64,000 nt of DNA. It comes from Antedon mediterranea. Taxonomy: Eukaryota; Echinodermata; Crinoidea; Comatulida; Antedonidae. This document shows positions 8,101 to 26,408 of the stretch, one piece after another. How positions within the stretch are numbered: position 1 is the stretch's first letter; each line of letters opens with the position of its first letter. Under the pieces are notes generated by a model, which did not search any database, was not told the DNA's origin, and saw only the letters and a list, made by a program, of their open reading frames with translations. The DNA lies in NCBI RefSeq assembly GCF_964355755.1, contig NC_092673.1, forward strand, positions 3,291,001 through 3,355,000, written 5' to 3'. A program made the position numbers and the translations under genes.

Positions 8101-11100
8101 GATTACTGTGTACGTTTTCTTAATAATATTGTAACATGTAGAAGCGGCCTATGGCTTAAATCATAAAGAAAATACAGTGCATGTTACCGTTAAAATTTAA
8201 AAATGAGGCATGCACGAGTTGGTGTGGGTACGAGTTGTTGAAGTATGAGTTAGCCAAGTTGGGAATAGGTACGAGTTATTTTGGGTACGAGTTGACCACT
8301 TCTAGTCTAGTACTGTAGGACCAGGCCTACTCTTCGCGATACATCGCGATAGCGCCCACACGTTGAGCTTTGAATTGAGTTTGCTTAGCTAGGCCTAAAT
8401 GCTAAGCCTACATTTAAAAAGGTGTATGCTGTATTTCTTTATGATTTAAGTCGTAGGCTGCTACTACAAGTTACAATAATTATTATTATTAGTAAGAAAA
8501 CGTAATAATACTGTGTAGTATTTCAAATATGCTACCCTCTAATAATAATGGAATGGTCCATTTGATGATCTGGGTTTTCTAGTTCCATTTTGGAACTAGA
8601 AAAGTCAGATATTGATATCTGAGTTTTCTAGATCTAGGAAAGTCAGATATCTGAGTTTTCTAGATCTAAAAAAGTCAGATATCTGAGTTTTCTAGATCTA
8701 GAAAACTCAGATATATCTGAGATCTGAGTTTTCTAGATCTGAGTTTTCTAGACACCCGATTATTACTTCTCAGTGTTGCGGGAACCGCACAACTTTAATT
8801 CTCGTGGCTACGGCACTGAATGATGAACTGAAATATCAATTTCTATACCTGGTATAAATTTACAGGCATGAAATCCATATCTGCTAAACTATTCAGATCT
8901 TTACTAGCATCAAATACAACACAGTATATTGAACGTGGTGACAAAAACACCTGGTGCATGGTGTAATAGAGATGATGTCCGGCAAAATCCCAAATACTAA
9001 AAAGCAGCTTGGTCTTTTCTTCAAGACTTTCATCCTCTGACCATTTCATGTTAGTTTTCACCAAACGAGTGACGTCTTTCGGCATAGGATCATTCTCTAA
9101 TAAAGATAAGCAATTAGAAATAAAGGTTAAAAGAGTTTTTATTATTTATGAAGACCAGTTTGGGGTATCAAAATTTAATGAATACTTAAAGCTCTGTCTA
9201 CACTATCAAAAAGTGTGATGTGCCCAAATATGGTAGTGATATGCCCAAATATGGTAGTAATATGACATCATCATGTCCATATATGAGCACATTACATTTT
9301 TCTATCACATAAAGTTTGACAGTGTAGACAGAGCCAAGATTTGGAAGGGTACACATTATTTTGTCACTATTAAGCAGAGACACTACAATTACTATTGTAA
9401 AAGCTAATCAGCAGTTATTTCAACCGTGATTCTCAATGGTAGAATCTATGAACTAAATATACATACTGTAAATAATGTATGATAATATGGGTCAAAATCA
9501 AAATAACATAAAACTGTTGTTTGTAACTCTATTGTTAAATTGGTGTCAATAGACCCATTGTTATAATAAATATTGGTACATTTGTTTTCGATGACCAAAT
9601 GTAAAACTAGACTCAAGGAAATGAAAATCGTATTATACCACAGTCAATTGTTAGTTAAATTTAAGGTCCGTGTACACCATGTAATTCCTTATAAGGAACT
9701 AAGGAATTTCATTGTGTATCATCATCATGCACATATTTAAACAATATTCGATTTCAATTTATTCAGAAATTATGCTTGCTATAAGCTTCATGCACTGTTT
9801 GTCAATTACTAATTTAAACCAATTTTAACCATTCTAGGTGGAATTGATCTAGACACAGTACATGTTATATCATGTTATCTACCTACAGATCTTTGGGAGG
9901 TTAAGAAATTCAAAATTTTTGTTTTGAATATAGAATAAAATGATATCTCATTTAGGCCATAATGTAAAATATAGTTCAATAATATTCATAATCATTTTCA
10001 GAATTTTAACAGAATAACTACACAAACCATCATTATCATTTTTAGGCTCATCTACGACCAAGTCAGGTGTTTCTGGTGGTGATTCTGTTGATAATGACGG
10101 CACAATTTTCTTCAACTCGTCGGTTGTTTTCTTTGCTATGATTTGGGATAAATTATACCCTAAAAGTAATAAAATAAAAATGGTGTCAGTTTGTGAAGTG
10201 AAATATTGATGATGCGTTTTATAATTCAGTTTAATAATGGCTTGGTTTTCAACTATTGCATTGTGTGTCCACACATATAGTACTCTACAATTTATGTTTT
10301 CTCTACTTTATTTTCCACACTTATCACCCATTCTCTGGTTATAATTACCAGGTATACAAAAAGTATATCAAAAATATAAAAAACATTTTATATTTTTTAC
10401 GAGCACAAACTTTTATTCAAATTTTGAAAATGAATAAGAATATTATAAACCTTACCTGAGTCACTTACAACCTTTTCCCAATTGTCAATTTTGTCAATAT
10501 CAATGCGACATGTTGTTGGTGACGCTATTCCATCTGTCTTTTCCTCATTACTGTTAAAACTGAAGAGTAGAAATGTTGATGAATTTAAGTTAGAAGGAAA
10601 GAACAAGAGAGAGTAGTGGAATTGTAGCTTGCTGGTTAACATGCTTGCCTTCTAATCCAGGGTTCAATGTAGAGCTACAGTAGTGAGAGGGTTGTAACTC
10701 ATGACTCTTTTAACTCTACTCCCTAAGCCTCAAATGAAACTAGGCACAATAAATTATCAAATAGTTTATCTATACTGTAATTGCCGAGTTTTTGCTTGCT
10801 GTTGGATGCGTATGAAATAAAAAAAAAAAATTATAATAAAAGTACACTGTACAAACAAATTTTGAACATGAAAAAAGTTGCATGTTAGAATGAAATACTA
10901 AATATCAAAGTACTACTGTACTTACTCATGGCCAAGCAGAGCATTTTTTAAACTGGTTTTCCCCACTCTCTCTGGTCCAACCAGTATGAAACGTAGATGG
11001 CTAGTAGCTTTCTGCCATCCCTAATAGAAGCTTTGTATGCAGCTAATAGAGTGCTACGATTCTGTAACTCAAACGGTGCCTGGACTGAAAGTTTAAAAAA

Positions 11101-14100
11101 AACAGTTATTTTATGTTGTTACTGTTCTTGTAGCCGTCTTCTACTGAAGTCACATGGCCGATATTGAGGGATCCATATAGTGTTAGTTGACTTCACTGCT
11201 GGTATAAGGTTTTATTGCAAATAGCCTGATTTCGCAAGGAATGTCATTGCACAATGCATGATGGGAAGAGTTTGGGTGCAAACATCACGACGCGTATGTA
11301 CAAACAACAAATCACAGACGTACACGTTTGCTCCCAAACCCTTCCCACCATGCATTGTGCATGCTATTTGCGATAAACCTTATACTACGTTATACCATGT
11401 TATACAATTTTATTTTAATAATATTTTTTTTTTTTTTTTCACTTATTGAATTGTTTATGTACTGTGCGGAAAATATATTTATGTAAAATTGTATTTAAAT
11501 ATTATAAATAATGAAAACAAGTGTATTGACCATCAAAAGAGGAGTACCATATTATTAACGGGTAAATACTTCATTTTCATGTTTAAAATTGTCAAGACTA
11601 AAACAATAAGAAACAAAAAGATACAGCATGTTGATTGGGTCTTACCATTTATCCACGATTCAATTATTTCAATCACTGTGTCCAACTCCGGATTGTTATC
11701 GCTCTCTCGTCGTATTTTTATATACTCCAGTGGCGTACTGTTTTCCCACTAAAGTATAATAAAATAACAAAATTGTAAATATCAAACATTAATTCAGAAC
11801 ATTTTTATCTATATATAGACAGCGACAATATCAAGGTAATATTAATGACAGCAATGGTTACAGATAATGATGAGATGGTCGCTCTGTCTACACTTGTACA
11901 CAAAATGTGATGTGCCCATGTCATGATGATGTTAGCACTACAATATTTGGGCAGTTCACATTTTTTTTGGTCAAAACTTGCAATATAAACCAATCATACG
12001 AATATGACATTTATCTATTACTTTATGGCTATTCACCTTATCAGTAACATCAGTCTCAGCTCCAGCTTGAAGTAATAATTCTGCAACTTCGGGTTTTAAT
12101 ACAAAATAAAGCGGTGTTCTTCCACCCTATAGAAATATATACATAACTTTGTAAACATGTATCGTGATGTTAACAATTGGTTGTGTTTTTTGCTTTACTT
12201 TGAGTGATTGTACTGAAAATTAACAGCGGCGGATCCAGAGAACAAACATTAGAATATAGTGGGGGGGGGGGGGGGGGGGGGCTAAATGAAATTTAAGGGA
12301 GAGAGGGGTGGGGGAGGGGTGTGACACACCTTTTAATCTGTCACTGGAAAACTCATTTACAATACAGTGGAAAGAAGCAGCATGTACTGTATGTACCAAA
12401 GCAGCAGAGGCACTTCTATAGTTAAATCTGATAATAATCATGACAACAATAAGTGTGGATACATATAAGATAGTGATCATAATGGCATTTCTGATTATGA
12501 GTGGACCTGGTTGGAACAAGGAAATTTAGATTGCCTTGGTTGGACTAGGAGCATAATTCTATGATTTAAGCTACTTACTTTATTTCGTAGGTTTGGGTCA
12601 GCGCCTTGTAAAAGAAGTATCTTGCAGATCTCGACCGCATTTCCACGTACAGCCTTATGGAGGGCGGTTTCATTAATCTGCGAATAAATAAAATGTTTAT
12701 TGCTTATTTAAAATATTTTTGAAAAACATATTATTTTTTTTTCTATCAACATTATGGCAAGATGACAGGGGAGCGGAGTCACTCTGCTGGTGCTGACGTA
12801 CTATCAAACTTTATGGTGCCCAGCACACTCTATATGGACATGATGATGTCATATCACTACCATATTTGGGTATATCACTACAATATTTGGGCACATCACA
12901 CTTTTTTTGTCAAACTAGCAATGAACAATAATTCGAAACCACCCGGTGATAGACTGAAATTTAATTAATTCATTTGAAACGATCTGTGAGAATGAGAAAA
13001 ATTCGCCCCAACCGAGACTTGATGTCCTAACCATTAGACCACTGGGGCTTTCATGGTATTGTTCAAACTCGATTATACACATCAAAATAGTTAGTTTCTA
13101 AATAAATGTTCATTCACAAAATCTCCCTTCTAGAGAATTGTATACTGTACTGTCAAATATATAATTAATGTACGGTACCACAAATCAAATGGAAATTGTC
13201 TAACCAATAATAAAAAAAAAACATAATAAATAAAAATTACAATACCGGTGTTCTGTCATCAACACCACACAGAACCTCGTGGAGAATTTTTTTTACTTCT
13301 TTCACATCACCATCCCTTGCTGCACAATGCAATTTATTCCTGTCAGAAGAAGTAATAATATAATTATAATATTTTATATTTTACCAGAATCATATTTGTT
13401 GTTTTTTAATTATTGTAATTGTCTTTTTCTTCCATCTTTTTATTTTATTGTCGATGCATGTCATGTTTTTTTTTTTTTCTATGTAAAACAATCAAAATAA
13501 TGTGTTATGATTGATTATGAACAAATGAATAATTATGGGCTAACCATTGGCCATTGGTCAGCTAGGTGTCTCATCCTACTCTGACCAGTGACCTGTACAT
13601 GACAACACAGCGGGCACTATTGAACCAACATGATGTAAAGTTCTACTTTATTTAATATTAGTACTAATTATCATGACTATTAATCATGATAACAATAATG
13701 AAAGTTAACAAGTTGATAATGATATTTGTACATACGTAAATACGACCTACCGGAACAATAGAGGTGTTTAAATATAGTAGACAGGAAAAGCTTTTATAAT
13801 TGTTGGAACCCTTCCAAAAAATAACAAATACTGTACAGGCTTGTGAAATAAATAACACTGTTACTAGTCACGCTTGATTGGATGTTTTATTAATGTTCTT
13901 GTCACTAGTCTTTGTTATTGCATTTAGCTTCAATGCTCCATCTTTCCAACTTTCATAATTCTCTTAAGCCCTGTCTACACCATCAAACTTTATGTGACAA
14001 AAAAATGTGATGTGCCAATATATGGACATGATGATGTCATATCACTATCATATTTGGGCACAAAATTTGTCAAACTAGTTTGATCATGTAAACAGAGCTA

Positions 14101-15560: not shown

Positions 15561-15756
15561 ACCGTCCTGTTCCGAACATACCGTCTTTTGTGAGAAATGA
15601 GAAAATAACTGACAGCGAATTGTAAACAAATTAATTGCCTGATGATGAATATGTTTGTGACGTCATTGGAATATTGTATCACTAAAGTGTTTGATTATCA
15701 TAGAGGCACTATAATATCTATATGATTAAATAGGACCACTGTTCAAATGTACAGTG

Positions 15757-15820
15757 TTTGGCTGATGGCTACGCGTGTGGCTTCATGTCATAACATCTGG
15801 TATTAGGCTTGCTGACTCTT
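15757..15820 (+). pseudogene. Vault RNA-like gene, 3'-truncated copy (V1)
   Basis: TTGGCTGATGGCTACGCGTG followed by TGGCTTCATG and GGTATTAGGC matches the 5' half of the copy at 16102. Box B and the GCCGTCCAGTC 3' end are missing. Its upstream flank, including TGACGTCA at 15659-15666, is duplicated from or to the flank of the next copy. It probably does not yield a vault RNA. Confidence 0.6.
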
Positions 15821-16101
15821 TTTAAATTGTATTAATTATACTATTTTTAAGGGTTAATGATACGGAGCGTGTCATTTTATGGATATTTTAGTTTTATGAA
15901 TGTACAGTAGGCCTTAAAAAGGAGTCATATTTCCTTTTATGTTTTGCAATCACCAGATTCATTTGAAAGAAATGAGAAAACAACTACTAACAGTGAACTG
16001 TAACAAAAACAAATTAATTTCCTGATGAATATGTATGTGACGTCAGTCAGGATTGCATCATTAAAGTGCTTGTTTAAATATTGTTCAAATTTGTAGTGTT
16101 T

Positions 16102-16205
16102 GTCTGGCTATGTTGTGTGGCGTCATCGTGATATATTGGTATTAGGCGGGCACAGTTGGTTCGATCCCAACCGAAATGATCGACCACTGACGCTGTCCAG
16201 TTTTT
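16102..16205 (+). ncRNA. vtRNA: Vault RNA-like gene (V2)
   Basis: Vault RNAs are Pol III transcripts that bind the vault ribonucleoprotein particle. This copy starts GTCTGGCTATG, has a box A-like TATGTTGTGTGGCGTCATCG, a box B GGTTCGATCCC, and ends CGCTGTCCAG followed by a T5 terminator. The 5' and 3' ends pair, as in vertebrate vault RNAs (5' GGCTGGC..., 3' ...CCAGTC-TTTT). TGACGTCAG, a CRE-like element, lies about 60 bp upstream. Confidence 0.75.
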
Positions 16206-16644
16206 CGTCTTTGCCATTTTATACAGAACCGTTAACGAAGATTTTTTTATATTCAAATGTTCTATAAACACCTCAAAGTTATTTCATAGAGTTCTGAAAT
16301 GGCATGAATTATTATACACATTTATTTAGCTTTTTAGCTCCGATGGCTTTATTACCAGTAAAAACATTAAGCATTAAAATCATTAACTTATTGTCCCCTA
16401 TGAACAAATATTTTTGTTGAATAATATAATATCATATTATATATAGTCAATTTAACCTAAAAATAGATCGAACAAAAATTATTACATGGAAAAACTGTAT
16501 AAAGCAAAATTACTCAAATAAACATTATTTTGTTTAGTTTTTTTATCTACGAAAGTGATTAACTGATTTCGGCATTTCCTGTTAAAAGTAATTTTTTAAA
16601 AGTAACATGATTCCACCGATATTATGATATTATTATATATTATA

Positions 16645-18035
16645 CTAGCAGTTATACCCGCCCCAGGGCGGGTTTCAAAATTAGTTTACAGCCTTCTCAG
16701 TACATAACACCCGACGCCAGTATATGCCTATACTCACCAACCTCCACCCTCTTTTCAATACCACCCCATACTCTTTCTTAAAAACAAATTCTTCCCAGTG
16801 ATGGACAAATTCAATTCAACCTAAGCTTCAACTTGAGAGGAGTATACCATAGCTATGATGGGTCTAATAATGGTTGAAGTACGTTGTAAATTGTGTAAAT
16901 GAATAGGTGTCATATTGGCTGATAATTAAAATATCTAATTTAGATACTGCGGCCCCCATAGTATAGCTATGATGGGTCTAATAATGATTGAAGTACGTTG
17001 TAAATTGTGTAAATGAATAGGTGTCATATTGGCTGATAATTAAAATATCTAATTTAGATACTGCGGCCCCATAGTATAGCTATGATGGGTCTAATAATGA
17101 TTGAAGTACGTTGTAAATTGTGTAAATGAATAGGTGTCATAATGGCTGATCATTAAAACCCATAATCCCTCAGTGGCAGTTGTCAAATGTAGTTTAAAAC
17201 ATTCGAAATACAGTTTCGGTCATGGTGATAGGCCTAAATCCCCACCCCAAAGTCCCATCTGCTTCCCATGGATGATTAAATACTTTAACATTTTCCAACC
17301 ACAATTCTGGTGTAAGCAAAATCCCCTGAACCCAAACCCTATCTCCCAACCCCACTCTCCCACAATTGACGTTTTTTCTTGGAGGATTGGTGATGTAGTT
17401 GAACACAGTAACAGTAAACATCATGTGTATGTTCACACAGGTATGGATGTCTGTAATGAGACAATCCAAGAGAACGATACATAGCTGGATATGGTTAAAG
17501 TACTTTGCTAAATGTGTAAATGAATAGGTGTCATATTGGTTAATGAATAAAATATGTAAATCGATATACGCCTTGCTGAGGATAATTAAAATACTGTCAA
17601 ACTTTTGTAGTATAATTTTACAATTCGATAGCCTACAACCCCGAGCCCTAGCAAAAAATGACATCACAAACCACCACTCCACCCCCCGCCCCCACCCCTC
17701 CCACAAAAACCCCAGGAGTCGGGGGAATTTTTTTAAATGTAGTTTAAAACCTTCCGGGTACAATTGCCATCATTTTGATACCCCATACGTATGGTTACGT
17801 GCAGACACAGAATTTTTTATAACGAACAAACATCGAAAGTGGGGGTTTTGACCACATTTTGGTCCCTAACTTGGATTCTAGGTGGCGGATGATGTTGAAA
17901 TATAGCTTAGAACATTCCCGGTACAATTGCGGTCATTTTGATACCCCATATGTAAGATTATGTGCAGTAACAAAATTTTGTATAACGAACAAACAGACAA
18001 ACAGACAAACTCTCTCACTTATAATATAGATAACA
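16645..18035 (+). repeat. Interspersed element with internal ~115-bp tandem repeats
   Basis: Starts near ACTAGCAGTTATACCCGCC and ends with ACAAACAGACAAAC repeats and CTCTCACTTATAATATAG, terminal features typical of a widespread class of non-autonomous non-LTR or related elements. Inside, about 16845-17160, three tandem copies of a ~115-bp unit contain GCTATGATGGGTCTAATAAT and GTAAATGAATAGGTGTCATA. Two later segments repeat the TTGATACCCCATA theme. The 189-codon open frame on the minus strand in it shows no recognisable domain. Confidence 0.55.
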
Positions 18036-18169
18036 CCTATATAAATTCCTGTCATTTGATTGGACGAATGTGGGTCACATGGCGTGCAATAGTACGCACT
18101 ATTCAACGATCGTTAAATAGTACTTTTTGAAACATTTTTGTTTGTTATTTAGATGTTATATAAAACAAA

Positions 18170-18325
18170 TAATGAATGTTTTGTATTCGTGTAATGGTAC
18201 AAATAATGGCACTTGGTGAATGATGAAAGGTTATATCAACTCGGCTTTGCCTCGTTGATATAACCTTTCATCATTCACCTCGTGCCATTATTTGTACCAT
18301 TGCACTCATAAACATTCATTATTTG
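18170..18325. repeat. Long near-perfect palindrome (hairpin)
   Basis: GAATGATGAAAGGTTATATC and its inverse GATATAACCTTTCATCATTC are separated by only about 20 bases around GGCTTTGCC. The arms extend outwards through GCACTTGGTG / CACCTCGTGC and AATGGTACAAATAATGGC / GCCATTATTTGTACCATT, about 70 bp each. No coding content. It lies between vault RNA copies V2 and V3. Confidence 0.85.
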
Positions 18326-18424
18326 TATAATATTCAACTTACTCAGCAGTCGTTGTTGTGTGACCTTACTATGGCATTGCGTCAGTATGTTGTCGTTTAA
18401 ATACAGTTTAAACGTACATTGTTT

Positions 18425-18540
18425 GGCTGGCTATGCCGTGTGGCTACATCGTGATATAATGGTAAATATGTTTGTTTAAGGCACAAAAAGTGTTGGTTCG
18501 ATCCCAACCGAAATGGCCACTGGCGCCGTCCAGTCATTTT
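18425..18540 (+). ncRNA. vtRNA: Vault RNA-like gene (V3)
   Basis: 5' end GGCTGGCTATGCCGTGTGGC, box B GGTTCGATCCCAACC, 3' end GGCGCCGTCCAGTC followed by ATTTT. 5' GGCTGG pairs with 3' CCAGTC. GCGTCAG occurs upstream. Same orientation as all other copies. Confidence 0.85.
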
Positions 18541-18856
18541 ATAGGATTTCCAGTGTACTTTTGCATTTTTATATTTTTAATACAATATTATAACATTTAA
18601 TTTTTGTCAAAATATTTTTTTAAGACTTTTATTGAAGTCTCTGTATCATTTGTTTTAGGAAAACGGTAAACACTTTACTGTTTATTATGGGTGTGTGTTA
18701 ATCTCGAAGCATTCATTGTGCTAGTTTTAGCTAAATACAGATAAGCAGTCAATACAAAATGTTTTTATTGTATTGCATGAAGTGGTATTTATTAATAAAT
18801 AAATAAACAAGAAATATTTCTTACAAAAAACGCTGATCGCTTATTGACGTAACAGT

Positions 18857-19140
18857 TTTAAAGATATATTGTCCCTCTAGAAAATATTTTTTATTTCCAA
18901 TTTGTTTTTGAATGTGTCATTTTATTGTCACATAATAGTTATTTTAGGCCTACCTGAAAAAATGTAATTTAAAGCAAAAAATACTTAAATTTTCTGTCAG
19001 ACAATGGTTGTTGGGTTATAATTAAACGTTTCTTTTCTCTTTTATACGTGAATAAATATTATTTTTTTGTTACAGAAGTGAATAACTTTGATATGAAACT
19101 CAATTTCTGTCACTTTAGTTTATTTTATTGCTAAGTCGAG
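18857..19140. mobile_element. MITE family B copy 1
   Basis: Begins TTAAAGATATATTGTCCCTC and shares GTCACATAATAGTTATT, a CTGTCAGACAATGG block and a GAAGTGAATAAC block with copies near 28.5 and 49.3 kb. The right end is eroded. Confidence 0.65.
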
Positions 19141-19368
19141 TTTCCATTTTAGCAAAAACGTCAGTGTCTATTACTATAACTAACTGCTGCTTGCTTTCAT
19201 CTAAAAAATGAGTCATCTCATGTGACGTAGCGGGCTAGAGCAGCAGCGTTATAAAAAGATAAAACATTTGGCGTGTCATACTTTGGGAGAGTCATAAATA
19301 TATCGACGTCATACAACGATTTCATCATCGTGTTATACCTTTATAACCGTGTTTAATGCGTTCTTATC

Positions 19369-19485
19369 GGCTGGCTTAGCTATGTGGCTACATCGTTATA
19401 CAATAGGTAGTATGTTTGAATCGTAATCAAAAAGTTGTTGGTTCAAGTCCAACCGAAACAGCCACTGGCGCCGTCCAGTCATTTT
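19369..19485 (+). ncRNA. vtRNA: Vault RNA-like gene (V4)
   Basis: 5' GGCTGGCTTAGCTATGTGGC, very close to the vertebrate vault RNA 5' end; box B GGTTCAAGTCCAACC; 3' CTGGCGCCGTCCAGTC then ATTTTATTTT. A TATA-like CTTTATAACC lies about 30 bp upstream, as expected for vault RNA genes that combine internal boxes with external elements. Confidence 0.88.
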
Positions 19486-20225
19486 ATTTTTTTTTACAAA
19501 TACATTTTGGTATGTTTATCTATCTTATCTTTATACACATAAACATTATTCTTCCAGATATTTTTAAAAGAATTTTATATAACTTTCGTTCGGCCTACAT
19601 TTTAAAATTAACATCAATGTATTTAGGACTAATTTATTCAAAGCTACCATTGCCTTGACTTAATATAAGTTAACCCTGGTCAAGTTTGCAAGTCTTTAGT
19701 TTTAGGTAGGGCCTACAAACGGATCACGGGATTACCTCCAAGATCGAACCAGTTCTTCCTAATCGAACCATGCTTGTGTAAATCAAAAAGAAAATCAATA
19801 AAGATATTTCTCTTTTTTTTTTAAATTATGTGAGGCCACGAGATTGTGTGATATGCGACTTTATATTGTTTTTATGAAATAAAAGATTGCTAACTAAATG
19901 TCATTAATAATTTTATTTTCTTAATTTATAAGTTGATCTGTTTTGCTTATTTTGTTCTTGCTAAGTCACTCATAACTCATGAAAAAATATCATTCATTTT
20001 TGTATGCAAATACTACAATTCAGCGCGTTTATGCTGCAATTTTTATGGATATGCTTATATGTCATACAAATATTGTTAAAAATCGTGTATATAACATCTT
20101 GTACTATAAGGTACCGTACTGTATACATTTCACACTTGATTGAGCCTATTGGATTTCCAGTTGACAATTCATGGTATTGCGTCATTGTGTGGTGTATTCA
20201 AAAGCGATTATAACAACGAAATACT

Positions 20226-20341
20226 GGCTGGCTTAGCTATGTGGCTGCATCGTAATACAATGGTAGTATATTTGACTTCAGATCGAAATGTTGTTGGTTC
20301 AAATCCAGCCGAATTAGCCACTTGCGCCGTCCAGTCTTTTT
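20226..20341 (+). ncRNA. vtRNA: Vault RNA-like gene (V5)
   Basis: 5' GGCTGGCTTAGCTATGTGGC identical to V4; box B GGTTCAAATCCAGCC; 3' GCGCCGTCCAGTC directly followed by a T5 run. Upstream: GCGTCATTG (CRE-like) and GATTATAAC (TATA-like). Confidence 0.88.
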
Positions 20342-20479
20342 AAGTAATTTTGGTTTTTTTACACTTTATTTGTACATTGTTCATATATTTAAAACATTCT
20401 GAATGTTTATTAGCGCCATTTTATTATTTTAAAACATTTTTGTTGTAGCAGCAATAAATGGAAAAGGCCTACCTGTTAT

Positions 20480-20600
20480 CGGTCAATGAAAATGTTTATA
20501 TAGGCCTTCGCCAGCAGTCTGTGATCAATGGAAATAGGCCTACCTGTTATCGGTCAATGGAAATGTTTATATAGGCCTTCACCCGCAGACTGTGCTTAAT
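20480..20600. repeat. Short tandem duplication (~65-bp unit)
   Basis: TAGGCCTACCTGTTATCGG, followed by TCAATG(A/G)AAATGTTTATA and AGGCCTTC, occurs twice in a row. Confidence 0.7.
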
Positions 20601-20810
20601 GAACAACCATTGGTAGGCCATGTTAATTTAAGCATATTGATTAATCGTGCATAACGAATTAGCAGGTGAACCAGCTGCATAAATATAACCGGCAAAATGA
20701 AATATAATTGTAAAAATTCATTTGGCCACGAAGGCTTGAAAAAATACCCCAAATTGCAGTGGAGTGTCAACAAGTAGGCCTATTTGGATAATTATAGGCC
20801 TACAGGATAC

Positions 20811-20882
20811 ATATCCGACGGGACTCGAACCCGTAATCCACGACTTAGGAGGCCGATGCCTTATCCATTGGGCCACGGAGGC
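20811..20882 (-). pseudogene. Degenerate tRNA-Arg(CCT) copy (array unit 1)
   Basis: Aligned to the array consensus it keeps anticodon CCT and box B. Its 3' acceptor strand reads CGGATAT instead of CGGAGGT, and the 3' anticodon stem is altered (GTCGT for GCCGG). Both weaken pairing, so it is probably non-functional. It is the left-most, outermost copy. Confidence 0.7.
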
Positions 20883-20972
20883 TCTTTGTAAAACATTAAA
20901 TAGAAAACAGACCAAAATTTAAGTATAGATTGTCCCAACCAAGAATTTGGGTAAAAATAAACAAAAAGTTAC

Positions 20973-21044
20973 ACCTCCGACGGGACTCGAACCCGCAATC
21001 CCCGGCTTAGGAGGCCGATGCCTTATCCATTGGGCCACGGAGGC
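20973..21044 (-). tRNA. tRNA-Arg(CCT), array unit 2
   Basis: 72-nt cloverleaf on the minus strand: acceptor GCCTCCG/CGGAGGT, D-arm GTGGCCCAATGGATAAGGC, anticodon arm TCGGC-CTCCTAA-GCCGG (anticodon CCT, reading AGG), T-arm with GGTTCGAGTCC. A T5 run follows. It matches metazoan tRNA-Arg(CCT) throughout. Confidence 0.95.
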
Positions 21045-21134
21045 TCTTTGTAAAACATTAAATAGAAAACAGACCAAAATTTAAGTATAGATTGTCCCAA
21101 CCAAGAATTTGGGTAAAAATAAACAAAAAGTTAC

Positions 21135-21206
21135 ACCTCCGACGGGACTCGAACCCGCAATCCCCGGCTTAGGAGGCCGATGCCTTATCCATTGGGCCAC
21201 GGAGGC
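21135..21206 (-). tRNA. tRNA-Arg(CCT), array unit 3
   Basis: Identical gene body to unit 2. The spacer between units 2 and 3 is nearly identical to that between 1 and 2, giving a 162-bp tandem period. Confidence 0.95.
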
Positions 21207-21287
21207 TTGCTGTGAAATATTAAATAGAAAACAGGCTAAAATTTAAGTTAAAATTGTGCCAACCAAGAACTTGGATAAATAAGCTAC

Positions 21288-21358
21288 ACCTTCGACGGAC
21301 TCGAACCCGCAATCCCCGGCTTTGGAGGCCGATGCCTTATCCATTGGGCCACGATGGC
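21288..21358 (-). pseudogene. Altered tRNA-Arg copy, anticodon CCA (array unit 4)
   Basis: 71 nt. The loop reads CTCCAAA, so the anticodon would be CCA (Trp) on an arginine body. One base is missing beside the T-arm, and the acceptor has an A-A mismatch. Probably a decayed copy. Confidence 0.75.
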
Positions 21359-21450
21359 TCGTTCTGAAAACTTAAACATAAAACAGACCAAAATTGAAGT
21401 ATATAGATTGTGCCAACCAAGAATTTGGGTAAAAATAAACAAGAAATTAC

Positions 21451-21522
21451 ACCTCCGACGGGACTCGAACCCGCAATCCCCGGCTTAGGAGGCCGATGCC
21501 TTATCCATTGGGCCACGGAGGC
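21451..21522 (-). tRNA. tRNA-Arg(CCT), array unit 5
   Basis: Consensus cloverleaf and anticodon CCT, followed by T-rich sequence. Confidence 0.95.
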
Positions 21523-21606
21523 TCGTTGTACAATATTAAATAGAAAACAGACTAAAATTTAAGTTAAAATTGTGCCAACCAAGAATTTGGATAAAAATAA
21601 ACGTGC

Positions 21607-21678
21607 ACCTCCGACGGGACTCGAACCCGCAATCCCCGGCTTAGGAGGCCGATGCCTTATCCATTAGGCCACGGAGGC
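21607..21678 (-). tRNA. tRNA-Arg(CCT), array unit 6
   Basis: Consensus except D-arm GTGGCCTAATGG (CCTAAT instead of CCCAAT), a change shared by all units to the right and by vertebrate tRNA-Arg(CCT). Anticodon CCT; T5 run downstream. Confidence 0.95.
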
Positions 21679-21757
21679 TTGTTAAGAAATTAAAATAAAC
21701 CCAAATTGGAGTCGAGAGTGGGTCAACCAAGTATTTAGATAAAAATACATCAGTTAC

Positions 21758-21851
21758 ACCTCCGACGGGACACGAACCCGTAATCCCCGGCTTACGAACA
21801 CGTAATCCCCGGCTTAGGAGGCCGATGCCTTATCCATTAGGCCACGGAGGC
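21758..21851 (-). pseudogene. tRNA-Arg(CCT) copy with 22-bp internal duplication (array unit 7)
   Basis: 94 nt instead of 72. The segment from the T-loop through the 3' anticodon stem is repeated, with one copy reading CGAACCCG and the other CGAACACG. This breaks the cloverleaf. The flanking spacer is near identical to that of unit 9, so a ~314-bp block was duplicated before the insertion. Confidence 0.85.
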
Positions 21852-21920
21852 TTGTTGAAAGTAAACGAAAATTGCTGTCGAGATTGTGCCAACCAATTAG
21901 ATAAAAATAAGTGATACTAT

Positions 21921-21992
21921 ACCTCCGACGGGATTCGAACCCGCAATCCCCGGCTTAGGAGGCCGATGCCTTATCCATTAGGCCACGGAGGC
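21921..21992 (-). tRNA. tRNA-Arg(CCT), array unit 8
   Basis: Consensus body with T-loop GGTTCGAATCC; anticodon CCT. Confidence 0.95.
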
Positions 21993-22071
21993 TTGTTAAG
22001 AAATTAAAATAAACCCAAATTGGAGTCGAGAGTGGGTCAACCAAGTATTTAGATAAAAATACATCAGTTAC

Positions 22072-22143
22072 ACCTCCGACGGGACACGAACCCGTAATCC
22101 CCGGCTTAGGAGGCCGATGCCTTATCCATTAGGCCACGGAGGC
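22072..22143 (-). tRNA. tRNA-Arg(CCT), array unit 9
   Basis: Anticodon CCT and intact acceptor. The T-loop reads GGTTCGTGTCC, one change in box B. Probably functional but slightly suspect. Confidence 0.8.
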
Positions 22144-22212
22144 TTGTTGAAAGTAAACGAAAATTGCTGTCGAGATTGTGCCAACCAATTAGATAAAAAT
22201 AAGTGACAATAT

Positions 22213-22284
22213 ACCTCCGACGGAATTCGAACCCGTAATCCCCGGCTTAGAAGGCCGATGCCTTATCCATTAGGCCACGGAGGC
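22213..22284 (-). tRNA. tRNA-Arg with TCT anticodon (array unit 10)
   Basis: The body is that of the CCT array, but the loop reads CTTCTAA, giving anticodon TCT, which still decodes arginine (AGA). The T-stem has one change (GGTTCGAATTCC). This is an isoacceptor switch inside a tandem array. Confidence 0.75.
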
Positions 22285-22367
22285 TAGTTGACAAAAACAA
22301 AACAAAAACCCAATTTGGAGTCGATATTGGTGCTAACCAAGTATTTAGATAAAATAAGTGATAATAC

Positions 22368-22439
22368 ACCTCCGACGGGATTCGAACCCGCAATCTCCGG
22401 CTTAGGAGGCCGATGCCTTATCCATTAGGCCACGGAGGC
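22368..22439 (-). tRNA. tRNA-Arg(CCT), array unit 11
   Basis: Anticodon CCT, consensus acceptor and T-arm; one change in the 3' anticodon-stem flank. Confidence 0.93.
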
Positions 22440-22494
22440 TTGTTGACAAATTGAAAATAAACCCAAATTGGAGTCAAGATTATGCCAACCAAGT

Positions 22495-22524
22495 ATTCGA
22501 ACCCGCAATTCCCGGCTTAGGAGA
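22495..22524 (-). pseudogene. 3' half of a tRNA-Arg(CCT) copy split by a foldback element (unit 12a)
   Basis: CGAACCCGCAATTCCCGGC (plus strand) and TTAGGAG are the T-arm to anticodon part of the consensus. The acceptor 3' strand is missing because of a deletion fusing spacer to T-loop. The other half lies at 23458-23490 beyond the inserted element. Confidence 0.85.
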
Positions 22525-22527
22525 CCT

Positions 22528-23456
22528 GTTGAACCCACAAATGTGAAAACGCCCACAAATGTGAAAACAACCACAAATGTGAAAACGTATCACCCACAAA
22601 TGTGAAAACAACCACAAATGTGAAAACGCATCACCCACAAATGTGAAAACAACCATAATTGTAAAAAACGCATCACCCACAAATGTGAAAACAGCGCCCA
22701 CAAATGTGAAAAAAAGAGAGATCTTGTCGCCCACAAATGTAAAAAAGAATCCAAATCAAATTTAGTGCTAGACCCAAACAATTTTGATCGAGTTAATGTT
22801 AATGTATATACATTGTATTGAGTTGTTTCAATAATTGTGTGTTCACGATACGTCTGTTAGGGTCGTCGTTAACGCGTTGGATTATTACAATTTACTGCTC
22901 GTGCGCGCGATATTTGCATGTTAACTCGTTGGTGGTTTAATGTACGTATAGTTCAAGACGATATTTGCTGCGCGCATGCACGATACTTCCTTCCAGATCA
23001 AGGCCATGTTATATCATTGTTGCTTGTAGTTGTGTAGTTGTTAACTGGTTGACTTACTATTATGTACGTATAGTTCCAAGTCGATGCAAAAAACATCGAA
23101 CATGGTAATATTCCAACGCGTTAATGACGACCCTAACAGACGTATCGTGAACACACAATTATTGAAACAACTCAATACACATGATATAATGTATTAACTT
23201 GATCAAACTTGTTTGGGTCTAGCACAAAATTTGATTTGATTTTTTTTTACATTTTGTGGGCGATGGTCGTTTTCACATTTTGTGGGCGCTGTTTTATTAC
23301 ATTTGTGGGTGATGCGTTTTCACATTTGTGGTTGTTTTCACATTTGTGGGTGATGCGTTTTCACATTTGTGGTTGTTTTCACATTTGTGGGTGATGCGTT
23401 TTCACATTTGTGGTTGTTTTCACATTTGTGGGCGTTTTCACATTTGTGGGTTCAAC
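22528..23456. mobile_element. Foldback transposon (TU-like) inserted in a tRNA gene
   Basis: 929 bp with inverted arms of about 350 bp around a ~215-bp centre. The outer part of each arm is a ladder of about ten CACAAATGTGAAAAC units, some as CCCACAAATGTG and some as ACCACAAATGTG with GCATCA spacers. The inner part is unique and matched (GTGTGTTCACGATACGTCTG on the left, inverse on the right). Termini are GTTGAACCCACAAATGTG. This two-domain arm, tandem repeats outside and unique sequence inside, is the architecture described for sea urchin TU foldback elements. No ORF of transposase size. No clear target duplication. Confidence 0.85.
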
Positions 23457-23457
23457 A

Positions 23458-23490
23458 AGGCCGATGCCTTATCCATTAGGCCACGGAGGC
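23458..23490 (-). pseudogene. 5' half of the split tRNA-Arg(CCT) copy (unit 12b)
   Basis: Plus-strand GGCCGATGCCTTATCC and ATTAGGCCACGGAGGC are the acceptor, D-arm and 5' anticodon stem of the array consensus, immediately after the foldback element. Confidence 0.85.
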
Positions 23491-23579
23491 TTGTTGACAA
23501 ATTAAATAAACCCAAATTGGATTCGATATTGTGCTAACCAAGTATTTAGATAAAATAAACAAGACACACCTCCGACGTA

Positions 23580-23737
23580 TTATTATTGCACGCGAGTCAC
23601 GCGCGAGTCAAATGATAAAGCATTTCTGATGAGAAGAATATTGTGAATGTAACAGTCTCCCTCTTCTAACCATCATTCTCAAGGTTTATTGCGTCATAAA
23701 TTGGTAGTTTATAAGCATGAAATAACGCGAGCTTACA
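23580..23737 (+). promoter_or_regulatory. Conserved vault RNA upstream block (copy 1)
   Basis: Nearly the same 150 bases precede V6 and V8: CACGCGAGTC, ATGATAAAGCATTTCTGATG, CTCCCTCTTCTAACCA, ATTGCGTCATAAATTGG and GTTTATAAGCATGAAATAAC. The CRE-like and TATA-like parts sit at positions fitting a Pol III external promoter. The conservation may simply reflect recent duplication. Confidence 0.5.
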
Positions 23738-23867
23738 ACTGGCTATGCCAAGTGGCTACTTCGGTTCTCGGAAATAAATGGAAGTATATTTGACTTTGCT
23801 TCAAAGGCGTTGGTTCGAATCCAGCTCTGAGGTAGCTTTTAAGCCACTAGCGCCGTCCAGTCTTTTT
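23738..23867 (+). ncRNA. vtRNA: Vault RNA-like gene (V6)
   Basis: 5' ACTGGCTATGCCAAGTGGCT with CTACTTCGG following, as in vertebrate vault RNA; box B GGTTCGAATCCAGC; 3' GCGCCGTCCAGTC then T5. Upstream TTGCGTCATAAA and a TATA-like GTTTATAAGC about 35 bp before the start. An internal T4 may cause some early termination. It forms a duplicated block with V8. Confidence 0.85.
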
Positions 23868-23999
23868 ACCTCAAAATACAATTGTTTAAATTTTAAAGAA
23901 CAATTTAATTATTTGTCAATATGCTATAACGACATCATTTAATATTGAAGCACAAATTACAGAATTAACTTTTACTAACCATCTAAAAATCCTCAGACT

Positions 24000-24090
24000 C
24001 CTGGCTGCCTAGCTTTGGGTTCATCGTGGTACAATGTACGTGTTACAAACGGGTTCAAAGGTTTTGGTTCGAATCAAAACGACATTCTAC
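24000..24090 (+). pseudogene. Vault RNA-like gene, degenerate (V7)
   Basis: CCTGGCTGCCTAGC, TTCATCGTGGTACAATG and box B TTTGGTTCGAATC are recognisable, but the CACTGGCGCCGTCCAGTC 3' end is absent. Confidence 0.6.
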
Positions 24091-24232
24091 ACCTTCCTTA
24101 GGACCTACCTTCAATGTTTATTATGAATATTTGAGAATAATTTTCTTTTAAAGATAGGATACTAAAACAAACGCAGTGACTGGGCAAATGTACAGCAGCA
24201 TTGTCCTAACTAAAAATAAAAGGGATCAGTAT

Positions 24233-24263
24233 GGGACTCGAACCCGTTAGGCCACGGAGGCTC
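24233..24263 (-). pseudogene. Internally deleted tRNA-Arg copy
   Basis: GGGACTCGAACCCG is joined directly to TTAGGCCACGGAGGC, so everything between the T-loop and the D-arm is gone. Confidence 0.8.
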
Positions 24264-24335
24264 ATTGGAAAATTCAACGTAAACCCAGCAGTCGATATTG
24301 TGCCAACCAAGTATTTAGATAAAAATAAGTCCGAC

Positions 24336-24407
24336 ACCTCCGACGGGACCCGAACCCGCAATCCCCGGCTTAGGAGGTCGATGACTTATCCATTAGGCCA
24401 CGGAGGC
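24336..24407 (-). tRNA. tRNA-Arg(CCT), outlying copy
   Basis: Anticodon CCT and acceptor intact; D-arm reads GATAAGTCATCGACC, with two changes from consensus (GGC to GTC; GGCC to GACC). Possibly functional; lies between vault copies V7 and V8. Confidence 0.75.
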
Positions 24408-24493
24408 TTGTTCAATAACTTTAAAAAACCAAATTGAAGTGGGGATTGTGTGCCAACCAAATATTTGGATAAAAATAAACAAGATAGGCCTAC

Positions 24494-24565
24494 ACCTTCG
24501 ACGGGACTCGAACCCGCAATCATCGGTTTTAGAGGCCGGTGCCTTATCCATTAGGCCACGGAGGA
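24494..24565 (-). pseudogene. tRNA-Arg-like copy with CTA (amber) anticodon
   Basis: The loop reads CTCTAAA, giving anticodon CTA, which would read UAG stop codons. The anticodon stem is weakened (CCGGC against ACCGA) and the acceptor starts TCCTCCG. Probably a pseudogene, but the amber-suppressor anticodon deserves checking. Confidence 0.65.
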
Positions 24566-24609
24566 CATGTAGATTGCTAAATATAAATCAAATATTAGAA
24601 GAAAAAATA

Positions 24610-24766
24610 TTATTTCACGCGTGTCACACGCGAGTCAAATGATAAAGCATTTCTGATGAGAAGGATATTGTGAATGTCTCCCTCTTCTAACCAACCTGGC
24701 ATTCTCAAGGTTAATTATTGCGTCATAAATTGGTAGTTTATAAGCATGAAATAACGCGAGCTTCCA
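24610..24766 (+). promoter_or_regulatory. Conserved vault RNA upstream block (copy 2)
   Basis: Second copy of the block before V6, with the same ATTGCGTCATAAATTGG and GTTTATAAGC elements just before V8. Evidence is conservation and position only. Confidence 0.5.
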
Positions 24767-24894
24767 ACTGGCTAAGCCAAGTGACTGCTTCGGTTCTCGA
24801 AATAGATGGAAGTATGTTTGACTTTGCCTCAAACGCGTTGGTTCGAATCCAACTCTGAGATAGCTTTTAAGTCACTGGCGCCGCCCAGTCTTTT
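24767..24894 (+). ncRNA. vtRNA: Vault RNA-like gene (V8)
   Basis: 5' ACTGGCTAAGCCAAGTGACT, box B GGTTCGAATCCAAC, 3' GGCGCCGCCCAGTC then T4. It differs from V6 at scattered positions, mostly outside the boxes. Confidence 0.85.
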
Positions 24895-25262
24895 ACAACT
24901 GTAAATTCGATGTAGTTTTTATGTTACATCATTGCAGCCTATTAGTTTGGACAACATTAGGCCTATCACATTTTATCATAAATAAAAAGGAAAATTACAG
25001 AAATAACAATGCTGAATCCGTGCAATAAATTACTGTATTTATTCAAATAAACGCCCCTGGGGTGTAATTTGGTAGCATATATTCTATATATTTATTCCAA
25101 AAATTATGTTCTATTTATTCAAAGTCAAATAATCGAACAACTACGGTATATCATAGATTATCAAAAATAGGCTATAGTATACAGCATGACCGTCGTCATC
25201 CAGTTGCACAAAATTGCATCATCGATGTCATCTTTAAAACCACCGAAAACTATCAGACTATC

Positions 25263-25378
25263 GGCTGGTTTAGCTTTGTGGCTTCATCGTGGTACAATGG
25301 AAGTATTTTTGAAATGGATTCAAAAGTTGTTGGTTCGATTCCAACCGATATTCTGCCACTGGCGCTGTCCAGTTTTTT
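25263..25378 (+). ncRNA. vtRNA: Vault RNA-like gene (V9)
   Basis: 5' GGCTGGTTTAGCTTTGTGGC, TTCATCG, box B GGTTCGATTCCAACC, 3' CACTGGCGCTGTCCAG then T6. GATGTCATC and a TTTAAAA block lie 25-45 bp upstream. Confidence 0.85.
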
Positions 25379-25565
25379 CCGCTTCAAAAATGTAATTTAT
25401 ACATTCACTCTTTCTTTTATTAATTATTAAGCTTTGATTTTTTTAGTGTGTATTTATTATATTTATTATTAATAAGTAATTATAGCCTATATAAATTCAA
25501 TCATAGATAGAAAATGCGGTGTTTGAATCTCTTGATAAAATGTACTTTCATACTAGACATTTAGA

Positions 25566-25760
25566 AGCCTTGTCTACACTATCAAACTTTATGTGACAAC
25601 AAAATGGTGCCCAGTGATGTGACATCATTATGTCCATATGGGCCCCATATATCGACATGATGATGTTATATCACTACCATAATTTGGACAACTCACTACC
25701 ATATTTGGGCACATCATACTTTTTTTTGTTAAACTAGTTTGATAGTGTAGACAGAGCTTT
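25566..25760. mobile_element. MITE family A copy
   Basis: Ends AAGCCTTGTCTACACTATC / GATAGTGTAGACAGAGCTTT. The core is longer than usual, with an extra GGGCCCCATATATCGACATG segment. Confidence 0.9.
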
Positions 25761-25921
25761 AGACATCAAAACAAAAAATCTTGTTTTATTTCCCGACATT
25801 CCTTTGCTTTTTCGAATATACTAATATACTGGTCTATATGCGGGAAATATGACATGAATCATTATTATTTCACAATCACGACAGTGCACTGTTCATGAGC
25901 TTATTAACGAATCGCTATCTC

Positions 25922-26023
25922 GACTGGCTAAGCTAAGTAGCTACTTCGTTACAAAGTTGTATGGACGACGACAAGTCGAGAGTTCGAATCTCTGTATTAC
26001 CTACTGGCGCCATCCGGTCTTTT
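25922..26023 (+). ncRNA. vtRNA: Vault RNA-like gene (V10)
   Basis: 5' GACTGGCTAAGCTAAGTAGC followed by TACTTCGTTAC, the block most like vertebrate vault RNAs; box B GTTCGAATCTC; 3' ACTGGCGCCATCCGGTC then T4. The terminal stem GACTGG/CCGGTC shows a compensatory change from CCAGTC. Confidence 0.85.
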
Positions 26024-26408
26024 ATAGCATTCCATTTTTTTTTTATTATGTATATTTTTTTTTCGCTATCATCAAAATGAGTACAAACGTTAGAATATGA
26101 TATTCTTAATTTGAATAAAATTAGTATGAAAGTCGATCAGGTGTTACATCTTTACCTGATATGTTTTTATGTAATGCTTTCCTGTATAAATATGTTTTTT
26201 AATAAATAAATAAAAACAGCATAAATAAACACACGGGCTTTGAACGCCACATAGAAATGTTACTAGTATTTTCTAATTCATGAATATTAATTAATTAGTG
26301 GCAACCATTATGACACCTGTTGCTAAAAATACTTTATATTTTAATCGAAAAACATTGCTTTGTCCAAAAGCAAAACATCATAAGGTACCTAAGAATATAT
26401 AATTGGTA

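Follow-up and report, generated by a model that had tools for sequence, protein, structure and literature searches.

What kind of genes make up a cluster of ten similar copies in the genome of the feather star Antedon mediterranea (class Crinoidea)? The copies lie on the + strand at positions 15757-26024 of a stretch of 64,000 nucleotides (nt) of contig NC_092673.1 (positions 3,291,001 to 3,355,000), which we call the window and whose own numbering is used below. A sequence-only reading had described ten vault RNA genes on this strand, eight of them full length, and the number, the strand and the completeness were borne out by our analysis. The identity as vault RNA genes was supported as well, yet it proved to be incomplete, as the centre of most copies appears to be tRNA-like. 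We suggest that the cluster contains eight full-length genes of RNA polymerase III (Pol III), most of which carry vault RNA ends around a tRNA-like centre, and we put the probability of this best overall explanation at about 0.78. The family match, the copy number (as far as searched), the terminal module, the upstream element and the match to the tRNA model were computed; transcription of the full-length genes would be expected from their sequence, and their RNAs may become part of the vault particle or serve as free riboregulators. A common upstream element, a tRNA-like fold in the centre and a trio of canonical vault RNA genes outside the window go beyond the sequence-only reading.

A cluster of vault RNA genes

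The copies, named v1 to v10, were compared with the Rfam models RF00006 (Vault; gathering score 34 bits) and RF00005 (tRNA; cut-off 29 bits), and are listed here with their scores in bits.

15757..15820, + strand: v1, truncated, 5' part only, likely pseudogene; BLAST aligns 15740-15808 to 16082-16147 (77%); no RF00006 match
16101..16207, + strand: v2, full length and decayed, in which the vault ends, a T arm and a 9/10 box B are present and an anticodon-like arm is absent; RF00006 22.7 (alignment A1)
18424..18540, + strand: v3, vault RNA gene, tRNA-like core 18445-18516; RF00006 47.7, RF00005 45.4
19368..19485, + strand: v4, vault RNA gene, tRNA-like core 19389-19461; RF00006 48.3, RF00005 44.0
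20225..20341, + strand: v5, vault RNA gene, tRNA-like core 20246-20317; RF00006 42.5, RF00005 49.8
23736..23867, + strand: v6, vault RNA gene with a tRNA-like core at ~23766-23833, whose acceptor-like stem has 7 bp; RF00006 43.5, RF00005 23.2 (below cut-off)
24000..24110, + strand: v7, truncated, without the 3' vault stem, likely pseudogene; BLAST aligns 23977-24088 to 25238-25354 (75%); our own model R1 gives 25.2 bits over 24019-24090
24765..24895, + strand: v8, vault RNA gene that duplicates v6 and is recent, with a tRNA-like core at ~24795-24861; RF00006 38.6, RF00005 22.4 (below cut-off)
25262..25379, + strand: v9, vault RNA gene, tRNA-like core 25286-25349, inner box A 8/8, box B 10/10; RF00006 48.6, RF00005 35.5
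25921..26024, + strand: v10, vault RNA gene, the shortest, with a T-arm-like hairpin that contains box B (8/10); RF00006 47.2

Seven of the ten copies exceeded the RF00006 cut-off, so that the covariance-model check upheld the proposed vault RNA identity; v2 scored below it, and v1 and v7 gave no match at E up to 1. The full-length copies measure 104-132 nt in Rfam coordinates, against the ~100-130 nt given before. As the sequence-only reading had stated, a T run closes the 3' end, with at least four T in all eight full-length copies, which is the Pol III terminator.

We call the contig of the window C4 (G000:C4) and two other contigs of the assembly C5 and C3. A scan of the whole assembly (354 Mb, 18 contigs) with RF00006 found at least 10 places over the cut-off, seven in the cluster and three on C5; given that 49 of 20099 first-look candidates were scored, ten is a lower bound. 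When v4 was used as a DNA query against the genome, four places were found (v4, v5, v9 and v3), all inside the cluster, and since this query fails on v2, v6, v8 and v10 even here, equally divergent copies elsewhere could be missed.

These counts bear on the idea that the copies are a tRNA-derived retroposon family (short interspersed elements, SINEs), or tRNA pseudogenes, that merely resemble vault RNAs. Matches to the tRNA model and the adjoining tRNA-Arg array would suit such an origin. However, the hundreds of dispersed copies that the sequence-only reading had associated with SINEs are not supported by at least 10 RF00006 places in 354 Mb and four places for the v4 query, and all copies lie on one strand within ~10 kb and have T-run ends. 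They also have a common upstream element (see below), which retroposition would not carry. On the strength of the copy number and this element we rejected the SINE or tRNA-pseudogene reading, which we regard as extremely improbable.

The protein side of the particle was found in the same genome. Four pieces over the cut-off of the major vault protein (MVP) repeat PF01505 lie at C3:7231488-7234047, so that MVP, the main particle protein, is encoded here. By the features tested, it is nearly certain that the C4 cluster belongs to the vault RNA family.

Terminal module and a second locus

The three genes on C5 form a canonical trio at C5:7177599-7178707 (L009:3600-4708), with RF00006 scores of 61.3, 58.0 and 49.5 bits and lengths of 93-96 nt each. 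All eight full-length C4 copies and the three C5 genes have a 5' module of 28 nt; for the 3' module the cut was set at 22 nt, and one C5 gene (c5c) is one base short there. Over this terminal module, v3-v10 are 64-86% identical to the C5 genes and v2 is 62-74% identical, whereas the centre differs in length, with 54-82 nt on C4 and 44-47 nt on C5. The pairing of the ends that had been claimed before was found again: in a hand alignment of the eight full-length copies, 45/48 cells of the outer stem P1 and 38/40 cells of P2 are paired as a panhandle, and the pairing probability of P1 and P2 was 0.79-1.0 in the six copies computed. Within ~45 nt upstream, the C5 genes have TGACG or its complement CGTCA, as read from the sequence. 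In the 9 kb around the trio there was no tRNA match at E up to 0.1 except for a separate tRNA (L009:5676-5747), which lies ~1 kb downstream of the trio on the opposite strand. The C4 cluster is the larger of the two vault RNA loci found in A. mediterranea, and it arose by local duplication.

In their accessible text, to which our use of the cited papers is limited, the published vault RNA counts are four for human and two for bullfrog (PMC7058938, PMC10491885) and five for Fasciola (PMC8824774), and local multicopy clusters are reported for a few mammals (PMC10491885). The unusual expansion proposed by the sequence-only reading therefore stands as to number, as the ten-copy cluster exceeds the published counts that we found, but local vault RNA clusters as such were already known. 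Our literature search for vault RNA in crinoids, whose coverage left out most subscription journals, returned no paper, and the search for vault RNA with cloverleaf returned, as judged by titles, none on a tRNA-like vault RNA core. In gnathostomes the vault RNA genes are linked to the protocadherin cluster (PMC10491885). A Pfam search with 10 frames of the window showed no cadherin, and the longest open frame in 89 kb around the C5 trio, read in ~10 kb pieces, has 380 amino acids; both are weak tests of a protocadherin linkage.

Promoter elements

We searched the 90 nt upstream of seven full-length genes for a common motif; v8 was left out because it is a duplicate of v6, and v1 and v7 because they are truncated. 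The motif ATTGCRTCAT (width 10), at about -48, scored 100.0, against a mean of 53.2 (standard deviation 3.3, maximum 60.9) for a null of 60 random sets of window places outside the cluster, and the results at widths 7 and 8 agree with it. This element, which resembles a cAMP response element (CRE), is clear in seven of the eight full-length copies (v2-v6, v8 and v9, with one mismatch in v4).

16052..16060, + strand: CRE-like element of v2, ATTGCATCA; motif search and exact-site scan
18376..18384, + strand: CRE-like element of v3, ATTGCGTCA, with TATA-like TTTAAA near -27; motif search and exact-site scan
19319..19327, + strand: CRE-like element of v4, ATTTCATCA, one mismatch, with TATA-like TTTATA at -28; motif search and site scan
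20176..20184, + strand: CRE-like element of v5, ATTGCGTCA, with a TATA-like string only at -17; motif search and exact-site scan
23688..23696, + strand: CRE-like element of v6, ATTGCGTCA, with TATA-like TTTATA at -28; motif search and exact-site scan
24717..24725, + strand: CRE-like element of v8, ATTGCGTCA, with TATA-like TTTATA at -28; exact-site scan
25213..25221, + strand: CRE-like element of v9, ATTGCATCA, with TATA-like TTTAAA at -29; motif search and exact-site scan

The 64 kb window contains seven exact ATTGCRTCA sites, six of them upstream of cluster genes, and such sites are not enriched across the window (32 with at most one mismatch, 42.8 expected). The reverse complement of the element, TGATGCAAT or TGACGCAAT, presumably resembles a C/EBP-ATF composite element. 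In addition, GACGTCA occurs at -62 and -63 in v2 and v4. Six of the eight full-length copies have a TATA-like hexamer between -27 and -29; it is displaced to -17 in v5 and -20 in v10. The 90 nt upstream of v1 contain no CRE-like string, and neither v1 nor v7 has a CRE-like or TATA-like element at the usual positions. Vault RNA genes have been described as having a proximal CRE-like element that is highly conserved across species; in human, all paralogues that are transcribed have it and the pseudogenes lack it (PMC7058938). Its absence from the truncated v1 and v7 fits this pattern.

The internal promoter was scored against box A and box B consensus strings, with the best box A match taken in the first 35 nt. 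The sequence-only reading had claimed box A and a perfect box B. Box B is indeed 10/10 in five of the eight full-length copies (v4, v5, v6, v8 and v9), but it is 9/10 in v2 and v3 and 8/10 in v10, and box A is imperfect in all eight, with 6-7/8 at best. In the C5 trio, box A is 8/8 and no box B exceeds 6/10. The promoter is therefore swapped between the two loci: C4 has a good box B and an imperfect box A, and C5 the reverse. A second, inner box A was found at the position of the D arm, with 7/8 in v3 and v5 and 8/8 in v9; because this is the best match over 46 nt and the C5 genes reach 5-6/8 there, a value of 6-7/8 is weak evidence.

A tRNA-like centre

The tRNA model RF00005 matched over its cut-off inside four copies (v3, v4, v5 and v9). 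ARAGORN called tRNAs in these four and in v6, with five different anticodons. In a hand alignment, with the arms chosen by eye and without a null, six of the eight full-length copies have an anticodon-like arm (stem 5 bp, loop 7 nt), in which 30/30 cells are paired and whose loop differs in each of the six. Seven copies have a D arm (26/28 cells) and all eight a T arm (39/40 cells). Applied to the machine-made alignment A1, the nested structure pairs in 87.7% of its cells; displaced by 1-3 columns it pairs in 20.8-46.1%, a slide control that is biased in its favour because the structure was derived from v4. Seven double-sided pair changes were counted on A1, and this number was matched by 2 of 500 shuffles. 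The minimum-energy fold of v4 is a panhandle that encloses a three-arm cloverleaf (z -2.79), and that of v10 consists of three small hairpins (z -0.74); these are the extremes of the single-fold z-scores of the eight copies.

The acceptor stem is the least regular part, with 2-3 mismatched pairs in v3, v4 and v5, a short stem in v9 and 7 bp in v6, and no paired 7-bp acceptor stem was found at the transcript ends. Given that the core is enclosed by the panhandle in all copies, we consider these RNAs to be tRNA-like and not tRNAs.

Several results weigh against a nested cloverleaf. The RF00005 scores of v6 and v8 are below the cut-off, v2 and v10 have no RF00005 match listed at E up to 1, and the latter two also have no anticodon-like arm. 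Besides the bias of the slide control, the percentage of paired cells on A1 was matched by 12 of 500 shuffles and the covariation score by 23 of 500, and further pair types were no better than shuffled (337 of 500 match). With all eight copies, RNAalifold predicted, besides the panhandle and the T arm, one stem of 2 bp, and no D or anticodon-like arm; with v3, v4, v5 and v9, the D and acceptor-like stems were gained, and still no anticodon-like arm was predicted. The cloverleaf is the minimum-energy fold in v4 only, lying 0.6-2.4 kcal/mol above the minimum in v3, v5, v8 and v9 and 5.6 kcal/mol above it in v6, and the probabilities of its arms are often low.

Part of this evidence would also be expected if the copies were ordinary vault RNAs, with a centre that is the known hypervariable region and a tRNA likeness that comes only from boxes A and B, which are common to tRNA genes. 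The Rfam vault model already includes a short stem at box B, and the missing anticodon-like arm, both in the RNAalifold prediction and in v2 and v10, agrees with this explanation. However, tRNA scores of 44.0, 45.4 and 49.8 bits exceed the cut-off of 29, a 5-bp stem with a loop of exactly 7 nt recurs in six of the eight full-length copies with six loop sequences, and the C5 trio itself shows neither a tRNA match (E up to 0.1) nor a box B above 6/10. We therefore judge ordinary vault RNAs to be an unlikely explanation, though one with some weight, and consider it probable that the nested cloverleaf is a real structure. The C4 RNAs would then be vault RNAs whose centre, in six of the eight full-length copies, is tRNA-like, and we propose them as a new form of vault RNA. 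The core may derive from a tRNA.

Separate tRNA matches also lie among the vault RNA genes, on the other strand.

20810..22439, - strand: 11 tRNA matches, mostly tRNA-Arg(CCT), antisense, between v5 and v6; RF00005 45.4-68.3 bits; ARAGORN
24335..24407 and 24493..24565, - strand: two further tRNA matches; RF00005 43.0 and 51.2 bits; ARAGORN

These thirteen matches are antisense to the vault RNA genes and interleaved with them; by anticodon they comprise ten CCT (Arg), one TCT, one CCA and one CTA. Our own model matched two antisense tRNA genes over its full length (22194-22299, 27.2 bits; 24473-24579, 20.8 bits) and two more in part (22371-22435, 29.7 bits; 3501-3575, 27.8 bits). We discarded all four as tRNA likeness with chance flanks.

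Duplication and constraint

If the C5 trio provided the working vault RNAs, then the C4 cluster could be a graveyard of duplicated and partly rearranged copies. The higher RF00006 scores and the 8/8 box A of the C5 genes agree with this, as do the truncation of v1 and v7 and the decay of v2. The history of v6 and v8 points in the same direction. They are the products of a recent duplication that includes the upstream flank (88.8% over 294 nt by BLAST), and their identity is 119/131 in the body and 143/149 in the upstream flank, with 2 and 14 gap columns. The substitutions in the body exceed those in the flank, so that no clear constraint is visible in this pair; this and the weak CRE-like match of v10 are further points against the reading that we favour.

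However, the upstream element is retained in seven copies and the panhandle and T run in eight. The bodies of v3, v4, v5 and v9 are 75-85% identical in pairs, whereas their 120-nt flanks are 49-59% identical, near the 46-48% of shuffled upstream flanks. The stems also show paired changes. One P2 pair of v6 and v8 is altered on both sides (G23755-C23844 in v6, A24784-T24872 in v8). We therefore consider a decaying side cluster improbable, and clearly more so than a set of ordinary vault RNAs.

The greater number of substitutions and smaller number of gaps in the transcribed body of v6/v8 than in the flank may perhaps reflect transcription-linked mutation. Upstream sequence is also common to v1 and v2 (15584-15697 with 15959-16076, 76%).

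Proposed function and its meaning

Vault RNAs are conserved, and both where they came from and what their variable centre does are unsettled. We propose that in each full-length C4 RNA the terminal module of vault RNAs is retained (~28 nt on the 5' side and 22 nt on the 3' side), which would pair into a panhandle and end with a T-run terminator. The hypervariable centre of six of the eight copies would be no loose loop but a cloverleaf with a D-like arm, an anticodon-like arm of 5 bp and 7 nt, and a T arm. Transcription most likely starts at the panhandle, where the start would be set by the CRE-like element near -48 and the TATA-like box near -28, and box B in the tRNA-like core would act with them; in some copies a second box A in this core may also contribute. 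The RNA would work like other vault RNAs: the panhandle would hold this Pol III transcript, and its variable centre would meet partners. In human vault RNA1-1, according to the accessible text of the source, p62 is bound by the centre, which is a flexible loop (PMC9014876).

How such a centre came about can be suggested only tentatively. It is possible that the C4 genes form a chimeric class in which a tRNA body took the place of the centre and the internal promoter was moved inside it (box B, and in v9 a perfect inner box A as well), after which the anticodon-like loops diversified while the panhandle around them stayed fixed; or they might show the ancestral form, if vault RNAs arose from a tRNA with an elongated acceptor stem. 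If the chimeric interpretation is true, then partner RNAs or proteins could meet a different 7-nt loop in each copy, and the partners of vault RNA would come to include proteins that process or bind tRNAs. The presence of plain and tRNA-cored vault RNAs in one crinoid genome would make it testable whether vault RNAs and tRNAs are of common descent, and the same contrast would make it testable which part of the RNA, the ends or the centre, targets it to the particle. It would also show how the internal promoter of a Pol III gene family can shift with the upstream CRE-like and TATA elements retained.

Other features of the window

Within the cluster, a long inverted repeat occupies 22527-23457 (22527-22891 against 23102-23457, 90%). 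It is rich in CCCACAAATGTGAAAAC units, has pieces of a tRNA-Arg copy on both sides and resembles a palindromic mobile element. A tandem repeat at 16849-17158 has a unit of ~114 bp whose copies are 96-98% identical, and a palindrome with sub-threshold matches to microRNA models is located at 18194-18300 in the upstream flank of v3. Outside the cluster, exon-like frames were found for a Roc/COR protein (5900-9142, - strand), an ankyrin-repeat protein (12495-12704, - strand), a drebrin-like protein (35262-38752, + strand) and a kinesin (51115-51447, - strand). A protein query assembled from pieces of the drebrin-like gene was 100% identical to drebrin-like protein of A. mediterranea in its best local alignment, which covers 53% of the query, and the next match was from Anneissia japonica (66%). 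An open frame of long interspersed element (LINE) type at 61985-63322 (- strand) has a reverse-transcriptase zinc-binding domain and 18 relatives, the best-scoring of which is 34% identical.

Comparison with known systems

Echinoderm vaults have been described from sea urchin, with an RNase-sensitive band taken for vault RNA (PMC550661). In the accessible text this is a single band of 26.5 kDa apparent size, given without a sequence, unlike the cluster described here. The vault RNAs of Fasciola hepatica (PMC8824774) are similar to ours in being multi-copy RNAs of an invertebrate, with four of five genes clustered and a panhandle fold, but those four genes extend over 133 kb and not ~10 kb, and a tRNA-like core is not mentioned in the text consulted.

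With the canonical vault RNAs (RF00006, the vertebrate vtRNA1 and vtRNA2, and the C5 trio), the C4 genes have in common the panhandle, the 5' and 3' modules, an internal Pol III box, the upstream CRE-like and TATA-like elements, the T-run terminator and a small same-strand cluster. They differ in having ten copies in one cluster and, in most copies, a tRNA-like centre. Compared with the C5 trio in particular, which has a centre of 44-47 nt and a perfect box A, they have a centre of 54-82 nt and a good box B. With tRNA genes (RF00005) they share the D-, anticodon- and T-like arms and the box B of the centre, and four copies exceed the cut-off of the model. Unlike a tRNA, however, the C4 core has no free 3' end, is enclosed by the panhandle, and presents six anticodon-like loops in six copies.

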